Below the pieces are notes generated by a model, which had not been told where the DNA came from, searched no databases, and saw only the letters and a program-made list of their open reading frames with translations. Below are positions 10,592-18,972 of a DNA stretch of 47,098 bases, one piece after another; the first letter of the stretch is position 1, and each line of letters starts with the position of its first letter. Both the position numbers and the translations under genes were made by a program. The stretch comes from Candidatus Fimicola merdigallinarum (lineage in GTDB: Bacteria; Bacillota; Clostridia; Lachnospirales; Anaerotignaceae), in assembly GCA_017694425.1 (NCBI GenBank), contig JADIMX010000128.1, positions 1-47,098 on the forward strand. The letters are read 5' to 3'.

Positions 10592-10611
10592 TGTATTAAG
10601 TACTTAATACA
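10592..10611. promoter_or_regulatory. Palindromic operator for the YtrA-like repressor
   Basis: TGTATTAAGTACTTAATACA is a perfect 20-base palindrome immediately downstream of the -10 of the minus-strand promoter, covering the expected transcription start. Its placement suits steric repression. Assignment to the neighbouring GntR protein is inference. Confidence 0.75.
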
Positions 10612-10674: not shown

Positions 10675-10706
10675 TTGACATTGTAATTTTATAGTATTAA
10701 TATAAT
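10675..10706 (+). promoter_or_regulatory. Divergent promoter of the SorC-type regulator gene
   Basis: TTGACA at 10675-10680, followed either by TAATAT (10698-10703, 17-base spacer) or TATAAT (10701-10706, 20-base spacer). It drives the plus-strand gene at 10754. Confidence 0.55.
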
Positions 10707-10714
10707 AGTATATT

Positions 10715-10743
10715 ACAATTGTTCTTTATTGAACAATTGTTCA
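10715..10743. promoter_or_regulatory. SorC/DeoR-type operator candidate
   Basis: TGAACAATTGTTCA (10730-10743) is a perfect 14-base palindrome, and a further copy of ACAATTGTTC occurs just upstream (about 10715-10724). It lies between the promoter and the start codon of a SorC-family regulator. The GAAC/GTTC half-sites resemble sites bound by this family, for example the ATTGAA/TTCAAT halves of B. subtilis DeoR. Autoregulation is inferred. Confidence 0.65.
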
Positions 10744-10753
10744 GGGGGGGTTT

Positions 10754-11710
10754 ATGGATAAGGAAAAAAATATATTTAAAATACTTGATATGTATTACAA
10801 TGAGGAAATGTCGCAGGATAAAATAGCTAAGAGTATGGGGATATCAAGACCGGCAGTTTCAAGACTTATAAAGAAAGCAAAAGATGACGGACTTGTTAAG
10901 GTGGTTATAAACTATCCTGTAGGTAGTTCTATAGAGCTTGAGAAAAAACTTCAAGAGAAGTATGGACTTAAAGAGGCTATTGTTTCTGTTAAAGATGATA
11001 ATACTACAGTTGAATACGGTGTTTTTACAGCTGGTGCAGAGTTTATGAAAAGGAATATAACAGACAATATGACAGTTGGAATTACTTGGTCACGCTCTAT
11101 AAAAGGTGTTGTGGAGAGATTTCAGAATATATGGGATAAAAGCTGTAGTAATGTAAGTGTTGTATCATTTATAGGTAGCAGTGGTAATCCGGATTATTCA
11201 GATGAGGAGTTTATGATGACTTACTCAAATATAATAGCTTATAAGTTAGGTGAAATATTAAGGGCTAAAACACTTCATATGTTTGCACCTATGAAAGTTA
11301 GTAGCGAGGAGATAAGAAAGATATTTGAAAATGAAAGTCAAATAGCGTCAGTTTTAGAGAAAGCGAAACATTCAGACATAGCTATAATAGGTATAGGTGA
11401 TGTTTCCAAAGATAGTTCTATTGTAAGAGCTGGGATAATGACTGAAGGTGAAATGGAAACGCTTAGAAACCTTGGAGGAGAGGGCGAAGTTATAAGTCGT
11501 ATATTTGATAAAAATGGAAAAGATATAGATTGCGAGCTTAACAGAAGAACAGTAGGTCTTGAAATAGATGATTTGAAGAAAGTACCTATTAGAGTAGGAA
11601 TTTCTTATGGTGAAAATAAGGTTTCGGCTATACGTTCAGCTATGGTTGGAGAAATAATAAATGTGCTTATTACAGATGATAATACAGCCATAGAGCTTTT
11701 AAAGGATTGA
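10754..11710 (+). CDS. SorC/DeoR-type sugar-binding transcriptional regulator
   Basis: A 318-residue regulator with an N-terminal helix-turn-helix (MSQDKIAKSMGISRPAVSRL, about residues 19-38) and a SorC-type effector domain of about 260 residues that binds phosphorylated sugars in characterised members (VGITWSRSIKGV, IAIIGIGDVSKDSS, VGEIINVLITD). Usually the gene sits beside the carbohydrate genes it controls. Here no sugar catabolic gene follows; the only partner, 18 bases downstream, is a small HPr-like protein. The start ATG has a strong GGGGGG site. It is divergent from the gntR-ABC operon. Confidence 0.92.
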   Translation: MDKEKNIFKILDMYYNEEMSQDKIAKSMGISRPAVSRLIKKAKDDGLVKVVINYPVGSSIELEKKLQEKYGLKEAIVSVKDDNTTVEYGVFTAGAEFMKRNITDNMTVGITWSRSIKGVVERFQNIWDKSCSNVSVVSFIGSSGNPDYSDEEFMMTYSNIIAYKLGEILRAKTLHMFAPMKVSSEEIRKIFENESQIASVLEKAKHSDIAIIGIGDVSKDSSIVRAGIMTEGEMETLRNLGGEGEVISRIFDKNGKDIDCELNRRTVGLEIDDLKKVPIRVGISYGENKVSAIRSAMVGEIINVLITDDNTAIELLKD

Positions 11711-11728
11711 GTTTTTAGGGGGTAGTAT

Positions 11729-11989
11729 ATGGTGGAAGTTCGAATTGATTTAAAAGATAGACATCTTAAACTTAGTGCTATTGAGTCTGCTGATGTTTGT
11801 ATTACAGCTAAAAAATTTAGTTCATTTTCGTTTATAAAGTGTGGCAAAAGATTAGCCAATCTTAAAGATATTGCTGAGATTATGTGTTTCAATGCAGATG
11901 AAAATCATACTATGTCACTTTATGCTGTTGGTATAGATGAGGTTAAAGCCATTTTAGAGCTTGAAAATAAGATAAAATTATACATATAA
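11729..11989 (+). CDS. Degenerate HPr-like protein
   Basis: An 86-residue protein whose length and second half follow the PTS phosphocarrier HPr: KKFSSFSFIKCGKRLANLKDIAEIM aligns by eye with HPr regions containing KVNAKSIMGVM, and VGIDEVKAILELENKI with the C-terminal helix. The HARP motif with phosphorylatable His15 is absent (that position reads LKLSAIE), and the regulatory Ser46 position appears as Asp (KDI, residue 47). It therefore cannot be a classical phosphocarrier and might mimic HPr-Ser-P. It lies directly after the SorC-type gene with AGGGGG upstream, so the pair is probably one operon. The HPr relationship is inference from pattern and length. Confidence 0.6.
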   Translation: MVEVRIDLKDRHLKLSAIESADVCITAKKFSSFSFIKCGKRLANLKDIAEIMCFNADENHTMSLYAVGIDEVKAILELENKIKLYI

Positions 11990-12029: not shown

Positions 12030-12081
12030 TTGTCAAAAAGTAGGTATTTTGTTGACAATTTTATAACATTAAAAGTATAAT
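12030..12081 (+). promoter_or_regulatory. Promoter with flanking inverted repeat for the BTAD regulator
   Basis: TTGACA (12052-12057), 18-base spacer, TATAAT (12076-12081). The -35 is the right arm of an inverted repeat, TTGTCAAAA at 12030 and TTTTGTTGACAA ending at 12058, so a bound regulator would cover the promoter. Confidence 0.6.
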
Positions 12082-12132: not shown

Positions 12133-13341
12133 ATGATTACAAATAAAGTAATTGATATTACAATGCTTGGCGAGTTTCGTCTTAATAATGCTAGTGATGA
12201 TTTTAATAAGTTTATAAATCACAGCAAAAAAATGAGAATGTTTATAGAATATCTCATTTTAAACAGGGAAAGACCTGTACCTTTTGCAGAGCTTATAGAA
12301 AATCTTTGGGGCAAGGAGAAGAATGATAAATCTTCCGGTGCTTTAAAAACTATGCTTTGCAGATTTAGAAATTCTGTTGAGAAAAATGATATATGGGAAC
12401 TTGAGGACATTATTGTTACAAAAAGAGGCTGTTATCAGCTTAACCCTAACTTACTTTATAATATAGATATTGAAAACTTTGAGATGAAATGCGTAGATGC
12501 TGAAAGATTCTTTAATGAGCCAGAAAAATGCCTTCAGATATATAAAGAAGTAGCGGAAATATATCAGGGAAATCTTTTACCTAAATCGGAGGGTGAAAAC
12601 TGGGTTATACCTAAGAGAAATTACTACAGCAATATGTTCCTTACAGCTATGAGAAATGCTTTATATCTCCTTAAAGAAAAAGGTGATAGAGAGGCTATTT
12701 TAGAGCTTTGTCAGAAAGTCTTAAGTATTGATATTTATGATGAATATTTCAACTATGAAATGATAAATACATATATTGAGCTTGAAAGAAATGAGGACGC
12801 ATTAAGACATTATAACTATATTACAAAGTTATACTACTCAAAACTTGGAGTACAGATTGACGAAGAAATTAGAAATCTTTACGGCAAGATATTAAGTCTT
12901 CAGAAGAAAAAGGAAGCGGATATAGATATAATACAGAAAGGTCTTGAGGCTGAAAGTAGCAGTAAAGGTGCGTTCATATGTGAATTTGGTGTATTTAAAG
13001 AGATATATCATCTTGAGTCTAGATGTCTTGAAAGGTCTGGCGGTACTATGTTTATGGCGGTTATGAATGTTGAAAGTACAGCCAGAAAAGAGATTAAGCC
13101 TGAAAGACTTGACAATATAATGAACGGTGTTATGAATGTATGCTGTAAAACATTAAGACGAGGGGACGTTTTATCAAGATATAGCCCTAATCAGATAGTT
13201 TTACTTTTACCTATGGTAAACCTTGAAGATGGTAATATAGTTATGGAAAGAATTATAAAATCATATAAAAGGGAGTATCCAAAGGTTAATATTAAGATTA
13301 CATACGATATAAGAGCCGTAAACCCAGATACAGCAAATTGA
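12133..13341 (+). CDS. BTAD-type regulator with degenerate GGDEF-like C-terminus
   Basis: A 402-residue protein. Residues 7-100 form an OmpR-like winged helix of the SARP type (LGEFRLNN, VPFAELIENLWG, LKTMLCRFRN) and 110-255 a bacterial transcriptional activator (BTAD) TPR-like domain (NEDALRHYNYITKLYYSKLGV). The last 125 residues resemble a nucleotide-cyclase/GGDEF fold: LRRGDVLSRYSPNQIVLLLP (341-360) matches the R.GD..aR...DEF..lLP pattern, but the catalytic GGDEF is replaced by SPNQI, so no cyclase activity is expected. It may bind a ligand or act as a dimer scaffold. It is followed 24 bases later by a small protein gene with GGGGG before its start. The C-terminal assignment is by eye. Confidence 0.75.
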   Translation: MITNKVIDITMLGEFRLNNASDDFNKFINHSKKMRMFIEYLILNRERPVPFAELIENLWGKEKNDKSSGALKTMLCRFRNSVEKNDIWELEDIIVTKRGCYQLNPNLLYNIDIENFEMKCVDAERFFNEPEKCLQIYKEVAEIYQGNLLPKSEGENWVIPKRNYYSNMFLTAMRNALYLLKEKGDREAILELCQKVLSIDIYDEYFNYEMINTYIELERNEDALRHYNYITKLYYSKLGVQIDEEIRNLYGKILSLQKKKEADIDIIQKGLEAESSSKGAFICEFGVFKEIYHLESRCLERSGGTMFMAVMNVESTARKEIKPERLDNIMNGVMNVCCKTLRRGDVLSRYSPNQIVLLLPMVNLEDGNIVMERIIKSYKREYPKVNIKITYDIRAVNPDTAN

Positions 13342-17714: not shown

Positions 17715-17900
17715 ATCTATAAATCTTGTTTCATTCCCTGTTCTGTGAGTCCGATTTTGAAAACTGTAACAGTCATCTACTTTCGTTTGATATAACTCTC
17801 CGAGGGCGTAAATTCGGATACAACGCTTCCTACATATTAACATTATCTTGTCAATGATATTATGCTAATTTATATTTTGAAAGATTAATACTTGCATTTA
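17715..17900 (-). ncRNA. Candidate TnpB guide (omega/reRNA) region
   Basis: In TnpB elements the guide RNA scaffold overlaps the tnpB 3' end and runs to the right end. Here about 150 non-coding bases after the tnpB stop are markedly more GC-rich than the flanks and contain a structured-looking stretch (TTACGCCCTCGGAGAGTT ... GGACTCACAGAACAGGGA) that fits this. The guide would be the bases just beyond the right end. Boundaries and folding were not computed. Confidence 0.45.
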
Positions 17901-18972
17901 AATCTCTATCAATAATAAGTCCACATTTGCATTTATAAACTCTATCTTTGAGTTTTAAATCCTTCTTAATCTCTCCACATCGACTACAAGTCTTACTTGA
18001 TGGATAAAATCTATCTGCTATTACTAACTCAATTCCTCTAAATTTACACTTATACTCAAGTTGCCTTTTAAACTCATAGAAACATTGTTTTCTTATAGAA
18101 TCAGATAAATGTTTATTTTTCATCATACCTTTTACGTTTAAATCTTCTATTACAACTCTGTATGGTTTGGTTTTCACTATACTCGTTGTAGTTTGATGAA
18201 GATAATTATTTCTTATATTAGCCAATCTTCTATGCACTTGTTGTATCTGTTTTTCAAGCTTTATAATACTTTTAGTTTTGACATACTCCTTTCCTTTTTT
18301 ATTTTGTTCATATTTTCTACTTACTTGCTTTTGTAATCTTTTTAATCTCTTTTCGATTTTTCTAACTACATAAGTTTTATTAATATTTTTATAAACCATA
18401 CCATCAGAACATATTGCTAAATCCTTTAAACCTAAGTCAATTCCTAATGATACGTCTGTTAATTTTTCTTTAATTTCTTCTTTCTCTATACCTACTGATA
18501 TATACCAATATTTATTATCATAACTTATTCTTGGATTGCTATATCTAACTCCAATCGGTATCTGTTCTTTTATCTTTATCCAACCAACTTTTTCAATATT
18601 GACATACCCATTTTTTACTTTTAGTTTTACATTATCATTGTAAAATGATTTCTTACTTTTTCTTTTACTCTTAAACTTAGGCTTATCAGATAAACCTTTA
18701 AAGAATCTTTTATATGCATTACAAGCATCTTTAACTGCTTGCTTTGCTACATTGTTAGATACCTCACTTAGCCAATTTAACTCAGATTTCTTTAGTACGG
18801 TTAATTCTTTTCTAAGAACTCTGTCTGATATAAACTTTCCACCATTTTTATAATTTTCTTCTTGCCTTGCAAGTGTCCAATTATATATAAACCTTGCAGT
18901 ACCTACTGATTTCCATAACTTTTCTTCTTGTAACTCATTTGTATATAGTCTAACTTTCTTCGCAAGTATCAT
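17860..18972 (-). CDS. tnpB: TnpB RNA-guided nuclease (transposon-associated)
   Basis: A full-length 370-residue TnpB. It shows the N-terminal helix-turn-helix region (ARFIYNWTLARQEENYK), RuvC-I SLGIDLGLKDLA (Asp179), RuvC-II VVIEDLNVKGMM (Glu276), the zinc ribbon CSRCGE ... CKCG (329-350) and RuvC-III RDLNASINL (Asp357). All three acidic residues are present, so it is probably active. Characterised TnpB proteins cut DNA next to the target-adjacent motif and help keep the element. Base use is more AT-rich than its neighbours, consistent with transfer. The start ATG has AGGAG 11 bases upstream. Confidence 0.95.
   Translation of the reverse strand: MILAKKVRLYTNELQEEKLWKSVGTARFIYNWTLARQEENYKNGGKFISDRVLRKELTVLKKSELNWLSEVSNNVAKQAVKDACNAYKRFFKGLSDKPKFKSKRKSKKSFYNDNVKLKVKNGYVNIEKVGWIKIKEQIPIGVRYSNPRISYDNKYWYISVGIEKEEIKEKLTDVSLGIDLGLKDLAICSDGMVYKNINKTYVVRKIEKRLKRLQKQVSRKYEQNKKGKEYVKTKSIIKLEKQIQQVHRRLANIRNNYLHQTTTSIVKTKPYRVVIEDLNVKGMMKNKHLSDSIRKQCFYEFKRQLEYKCKFRGIELVIADRFYPSSKTCSRCGEIKKDLKLKDRVYKCKCGLIIDRDLNASINLSKYKLA

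Follow-up and report, generated by a model that had tools for sequence, protein, structure and literature searches.

A SorC-type regulator gene and an adjoining gene for a divergent HPr-domain protein in Candidatus Fimicola merdigallinarum

The two-gene locus and its leader

The window, that is, the whole stretch of 47,098 nucleotides analyzed here (contig JADIMX010000128.1, assembly GCA_017694425.1), contains two open reading frames, for proteins of 318 and 86 residues, that lie on the same strand, 18 nt apart. The first encodes a SorC-type transcriptional regulator and the second a small protein with an HPr domain. Both frames were exactly as an earlier note on this DNA, made from the letters alone, had described them. 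Their coordinates, and those of the sequence elements around them, are listed in Table 1. The codon index of the two genes was 0.748 and 0.736, compared to 0.72–0.74 for leuA, ppdK, and the BTAD gene, whereas the spurious ORFs of the window reached 0.36–0.52, far below the values of the pair. The gene spacing, the strong Shine-Dalgarno sequences, and a coding quality like that of real genes of the window support an accessory SorC operon, and both proteins are apparently encoded in one transcription unit.

Table 1. Features of the SorC/HPr-like locus (window coordinates)
Feature	Position	Strand	Basis
Sigma-70-type promoter-like site, TTGACA-17-TAATAT	10675..10703	+	Consensus scan, 10/12
Second operator-like copy ACAATTGTTC, 10 bp	10715..10724	.	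Direct repeat; the 10-mer recurs in the main palindrome, 18 bp away
Perfect 14-bp palindrome TGAACAATTGTTCA, candidate SorC operator	10730..10743	.	Sequence
G-rich Shine-Dalgarno sequence of the SorC gene	10744..10750	+	Read from sequence
SorC/DeoR-subfamily transcriptional regulator, 318 aa, HTH and phosphosugar-binding domain	10754..11710	+	Pfam, PDB matches, tree
Shine-Dalgarno sequence AGGGGG of the small gene	11717..11722	+	Read from sequence
Divergent HPr-domain protein, 86 aa	11729..11989	+	Pfam PTS-HPr, family profile, alignment

The pair is flanked on the left by an ABC transporter with a GntR regulator, encoded on the minus strand, and on the right by a BTAD-domain regulator. No sugar enzyme or PTS gene adjoins it in the immediate neighborhood, for which the earlier note was correct. 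Closely upstream of the GntR-type regulator gene lies a 20-bp perfect palindrome, TGTATTAAGTACTTAATACA (10592–10611), which is probably GntR's own operator. The BTAD-domain regulator (12133–13341) has a weak GGDEF-like C-terminus and is conserved in the genus at 72–84% identity; a perfect-consensus promoter is located ahead of its gene, at 12052–12081. Further downstream, a TnpB-like ORF (17860–18972) was found within a pilus/secretion gene cluster, and a second TnpB-like gene was found on contig C94 (L069).

The palindrome that the earlier note had placed before the regulator is present in the leader, and it is the sole exact copy in the genome. The palindrome alone was rejected as evidence of an operator, because the A+T-rich window has no more 14-bp palindromes than chance predicts (5 observed, 5.7 expected); the probability of finding one by chance in a 100-bp leader is 0.01–0.03. 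For the palindrome and the second 10-mer copy jointly, the chance is 1.5e-4 to 7.5e-4 per 100-bp random leader. With its flank, the palindrome has ATTGAACAA in common with the left half-operator of Bacillus subtilis DeoR, ATTGAACAAAATTTCAAT (PMC11229326). A conserved TGAAC(G/A)TAATTACA.. element was also observed at the equivalent place of three SorC genes of genus g11; a TGAACA half-site is conserved ahead of these closest SorC genes. The operator-like element would be located directly downstream of the transcription start set by the promoter-like site, which fits autorepression. The 10/12 match of this site is weak by itself because such consensus matches are enriched by the local A+T richness. 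It is plausible that the double element in the leader is an autoregulatory SorC operator. A genome scan revealed no second strong operator site that would define a regulon. The only one-mismatch site (C14), before an ArsR/heavy-metal ATPase gene pair, was rejected as a SorC site, as it is more likely ArsR's own operator, and the remaining sites, with two mismatches, are all located inside genes.

The regulator and its probable effector

The regulator matched the Pfam family Sugar-bind (PF04198) with 212.7 bits over residues 56–317, with a helix-turn-helix motif at residues 9–50, as anticipated in the earlier note, which had called it a sugar-phosphate sensor. This combination of an N-terminal HTH and a C-terminal Sugar-bind domain over the full length places it in the SorC family (DeoR/LsrR subfamily), and its best solved relatives in the PDB, each matched over the full length, were DeoR (8r7y, 137 bits), LsrR (128 bits), and SorC (126 bits). 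The score with the DeoR equivalog model NCBIfam NF053881 was 220 bits, below the cut-off of 420. A lysine of DeoR, which we take to form a Schiff base with deoxyribose-5-phosphate, corresponds to Ile in the regulator; thus, deoxyribose-5-phosphate is unlikely to be its effector, and another one is likely.

A tree calculated from 52 SorC proteins joined the regulator to three proteins from genus g11 of the same family, with 99/97 support. Downstream of the SorC gene, the g11 genomes have a transaldolase/fructose-6-phosphate aldolase gene, either immediately or after a short-chain dehydrogenase gene. This link of the closest SorC genes to transaldolase makes a pentose- or hexose-phosphate from that pathway the probable effector. 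The two other SorC-type genes found in the genome are conventional, with one heading a glucitol-type PTS operon and the other preceding pgk.

The regulator resembles B. subtilis DeoR and the SorC-family repressors LsrR, SorC, and CggR in its phosphosugar-binding domain, its base-contacting arginines, and its full-length match. In DeoR, the base-contacting residues are Arg34 and Arg39 (PMC11229326), and these align with Arg32 and Arg37 of the regulator, a correspondence that assumes that a tag shifts the numbering of the PDB chain by five residues, as deduced from the chain length. A further likeness to DeoR-type repressors is the presence of TTGAACA-type half-sites in a putative two-part operator; operators of this family have inverted and direct repeats close to the regulator's own promoter. 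In contrast to DeoR, the operon in the window is without a sugar gene, and its operator-like element lies downstream of the promoter-like site.

The small HPr-domain protein

The 86-residue protein matched Pfam PTS-HPr (PF00381) over residues 17–82 with 28.7 bits (cut-off 23), and the same match scored 27.7 bits in the genome-wide search. It remained below the stricter NCBIfam HPr subfamily model TIGR01003 (18.9 vs 47.9 bits), and a family profile built without it scored it at 40.5 bits. When the protein was aligned with solved and genomic HPrs, Ser16 corresponded to His15, Ile18 to Arg17, Glu19 to Pro18, Asp47 to Ser46, and Ala49 to Met48. Gly49 and Gly54 of HPr are also lost, Ile47 is kept, and a Met occupies the position of Met51. 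By its Pfam score the protein belongs to the HPr domain family, and the absence of His15 and the Asp at the Ser46 position, both pointed out in the earlier note, hold. A single-sequence AlphaFold2 model of the protein had a pLDDT of 38 and is unreliable.

His15, the absence of which the earlier note had pointed out, is indeed missing here, but such a loss is common in the order. Among 43 relatives, His15 was found in only 14 and was replaced by Asp or Glu in 28, because the whiA-adjacent Crh-type proteins of the order are without the histidine. Ser46 was kept in 41 of the 43 and Arg17 in 40. The alignments indicate that His15 loss by itself is ordinary in this order, and that the joint loss of Ser46 and Arg17 is not. 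The protein thus differs from the PTS phosphocarrier HPr (ptsH), which is recognized by His15 and Arg17, positions that are Ser and Ile here. It resembles Crh as an HPr-family member without His15, and the nearest sequences found by search were WhiA-linked Crh-type proteins of the same order. Crh, however, keeps a phosphorylatable Ser46, and the Crh-type relatives collected keep Arg17 and are encoded beside whiA, whereas the small protein has neither residue and is encoded beside a SorC gene. The Crh spot beside whiA in the rapZ-whiA cluster is occupied by another paralogue (contig C51).

Four other HPr-domain genes were found in the genome: one with ptsI, a second canonical HPr gene, a Crh-like gene after whiA, and one beside metG. 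The Crh-like gene shares its cluster with an HPr kinase gene (hprK-murB-rapZ-whiA). The genome therefore has a canonical system without the small protein.

The closest homologue of the small protein was at most ~40% identical, over a part of the sequence only. In the HPr tree, its branch was extremely long (~4 changes per site), so the tree does not place its exact origin within the family. A phage origin was rejected, as no PHROG match was found for the protein; no HPr homologues were found in viral contigs.

Neutral evolution was simulated by letting two paralogues from the same genome, the Crh-like protein and a canonical HPr, evolve until they were as different as the small protein is (2000 runs). 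The open frame was retained in 18 of the 2000 runs (0.6–1.2% of runs). The best score with the HPr profile built without the small protein was 31.7 bits, and none of the 2000 runs reached the 40.5 bits of the small protein itself. Because the neutral runs never matched its scaffold score, the small protein was under selection during much of its divergence, with recent decay still compatible with this result. The small gene is thus not neutral debris, and the pair is real and probably functional.

The divergence was not even over the protein. Interface positions were taken from a single published residue list for HPr (PMC3724859, derived by docking), and a single conservation cut-off was applied; similar residues were kept in 7 of 17 conserved interface columns, compared to 16 of 18 elsewhere (Fisher p 0.0045). 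With identical residues, the counts were 6 of 17 and 12 of 18, a difference that was not significant (p 0.094); by identity, 11 of the 17 family-conserved partner-face residues are lost. The sequence thus points to a retained HPr scaffold on which the shared partner-binding face is remodelled.

Distribution and interpretation of the pair

In both congeners, the order of the leu genes, the ABC transporter with the GntR region, a gap, and the BTAD regulator is kept, and a MATE transporter gene fills the gap where the pair lies in the window. A six-frame search of the other genomes sampled, 57 from the family, 391 from the order, and 390 from the class, yielded no ortholog of the small protein, and the protein had no match in plasmids or viral contigs. 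No second SorC/HPr-like pair was detected when both proteins were compared with relatives, the order, the class, and genome contigs, and the small protein also with the family; the pattern scans of genome contigs and viral contigs detect close relatives only. Among the genomes examined, the pair is accessory and was found in one species only. It looks like a lineage-specific oddity, not like a conserved module, and the claim of a new kind of carbon control module made in the earlier note does not agree with this distribution; the note itself had named a pair that is not conserved as grounds for refuting it. No description of a SorC-HPr pair was found in the open-access literature, which is weak evidence of novelty, as most subscription papers lie outside that search.

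A shared operon of SorC and HPr genes is possible, as seen in four genomes of family f77, where SorC-headed operons or gene runs include a gene for a normal HPr that has both His15 and Ser46. These runs (L120–L124; four of five genomes examined) contain a glycerol-1-phosphate-dehydrogenase-like gene, a HAD phosphatase gene, and a dedicated canonical HPr gene, and some contain a glucitol-type PTS. The pair resembles the f77 SorC-headed glucitol-type PTS operons in having SorC and HPr genes in one apparent operon or adjoining run; it differs from them in that their HPr has both phosphorylation sites and that sugar or PTS genes lie between their SorC and HPr genes. The pair was rejected as a remnant of a SorC-glucitol-PTS-HPr operon: its regulator groups with the transaldolase-linked SorC proteins instead, and neither tree joins the pair with the f77 proteins.

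At about even odds (probability roughly 0.5), the locus is an accessory SorC operon under autoregulation, and its second gene encodes a remodelled HPr-fold protein that stays permanently unphosphorylated and binds one dedicated partner. A SorC tetramer would bind the double operator in the leader and repress its own promoter until released by a sugar phosphate, which is probably a transaldolase-pathway pentose- or hexose-phosphate; both proteins would then be produced together. The small protein would be an HPr-fold paralogue that can be phosphorylated neither by Enzyme I (no His15) nor by HPr kinase (no Ser46), and could thus serve as a permanently "on" binding module, independent of the state of the PTS and of HPr kinase. 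Its one dedicated partner might be SorC itself, a sugar kinase, or some other enzyme. The autorepression, the kind of effector, the co-transcription, and the binding to a single partner are the parts of this reading that we infer. Known regulatory HPr relatives signal via phosphorylation at His15 or Ser46. If a member has lost both sites while selection maintains its scaffold, this would mean that the HPr fold is reusable as a simple binding module, in this case controlled by a phosphosugar sensor; the single-species distribution limits the weight of such a case.

It is rather unlikely that the small gene is a relaxed or decaying paralogue. In that case, an HPr or Crh-type copy would have become dispensable when its PTS or sugar operon was lost, and its frame would still be open with little consequence. 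The very long branch (~4 changes per site), the absence of the small gene from both congeners, and the loss of both phosphosites along with many conserved residues would all be expected of such a gene, and the SorC-headed PTS operons with a normal HPr elsewhere could be its ancestral form. Drift to equal identity, however, rarely kept the frame and never the family score, which disfavors the decayed PTS gene that the earlier note had named as the alternative. Moreover, the codon usage of the small gene is of the expressed-gene type, and the SorC and HPr-like proteins of the pair are not grouped with those of the PTS operons. The neutral runs are compatible with a decay that followed a long functional phase.

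If the small protein in the accessory operon has a dedicated partner, the regulator beside it could be considered. In that case, the small protein would bind SorC as a protein co-effector, and the pair would be autoregulatory, with the level of the product tuning repression. The two are the only genes of the unit, and the partner face of the small protein is rebuilt. A precedent from Escherichia coli places HPr one step from such a regulator: HPr binds LsrK and inhibits it, and LsrK is the kinase producing the ligand of LsrR, a member of the SorC family (PMC8016206). The likeness is an HPr effect on what a SorC-family regulator senses; the difference is that the target there is the kinase, and that this HPr is ordinary, phosphorylatable, and not encoded beside the regulator. 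A direct HPr-SorC contact was not found in the open-access literature searched, and no comparable partner gene adjoins the SorC genes closest to this one. Binding to SorC is doubtful, and equally doubtful is the broader proposal that a non-phosphorylatable HPr-fold protein serves as dedicated co-effector of a SorC-family repressor or its sugar kinase. If true, a PTS-like protein insensitive to signals from the PTS and HPr kinase would tune sugar-phosphate sensing.

The reading offered in the earlier note, in which Asp at position 46 imitates phosphorylated Ser46, would have the small protein act like Crh, as a constitutive co-repressor for a LacI regulator of the CcpA type, placed under the control of a sugar-phosphate sensor. 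This is highly improbable. Mimicry toward CcpA is unlikely because the contact residues Arg17, which in HPr reportedly takes part in CcpA signalling (Horstmann 2007, a title cited in PMC8016206), and Met48 are gone. Gly49, Gly54, and most of the conserved partner face have been lost as well, and the pair is not conserved. In favor of this reading are the Asp itself, the kept Ile47 with Met at the Met51 position, the HPr kinase and Crh-like protein encoded in the genome, and the precedent of S46D as a phosphomimetic in Streptococcus pneumoniae HPr (PMC10269683). Overall, the earlier observation of a SorC-type regulator coupled to an HPr-like protein that lacks His15 and has Asp at the Ser46 position stands; its interpretation is supported in part, the mimic and the new module not being among the supported parts.

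Other HPr paralogues also deviate from the canonical residues. The one encoded beside metG (L006:145–405, G000 contig C144) keeps His15, carries Tyr at the Arg17 position (GLHDYS), and forms a long branch. Most of the Crh-type WhiA-linked relatives of the order (genes L002, L008, L009–L018, L070, and L079–L082) have Asp or Glu at the His15 position (28 of the 43 collected) and keep Ser46. It is possible that this acidic residue is a fixed mimic of phosphorylated His15.
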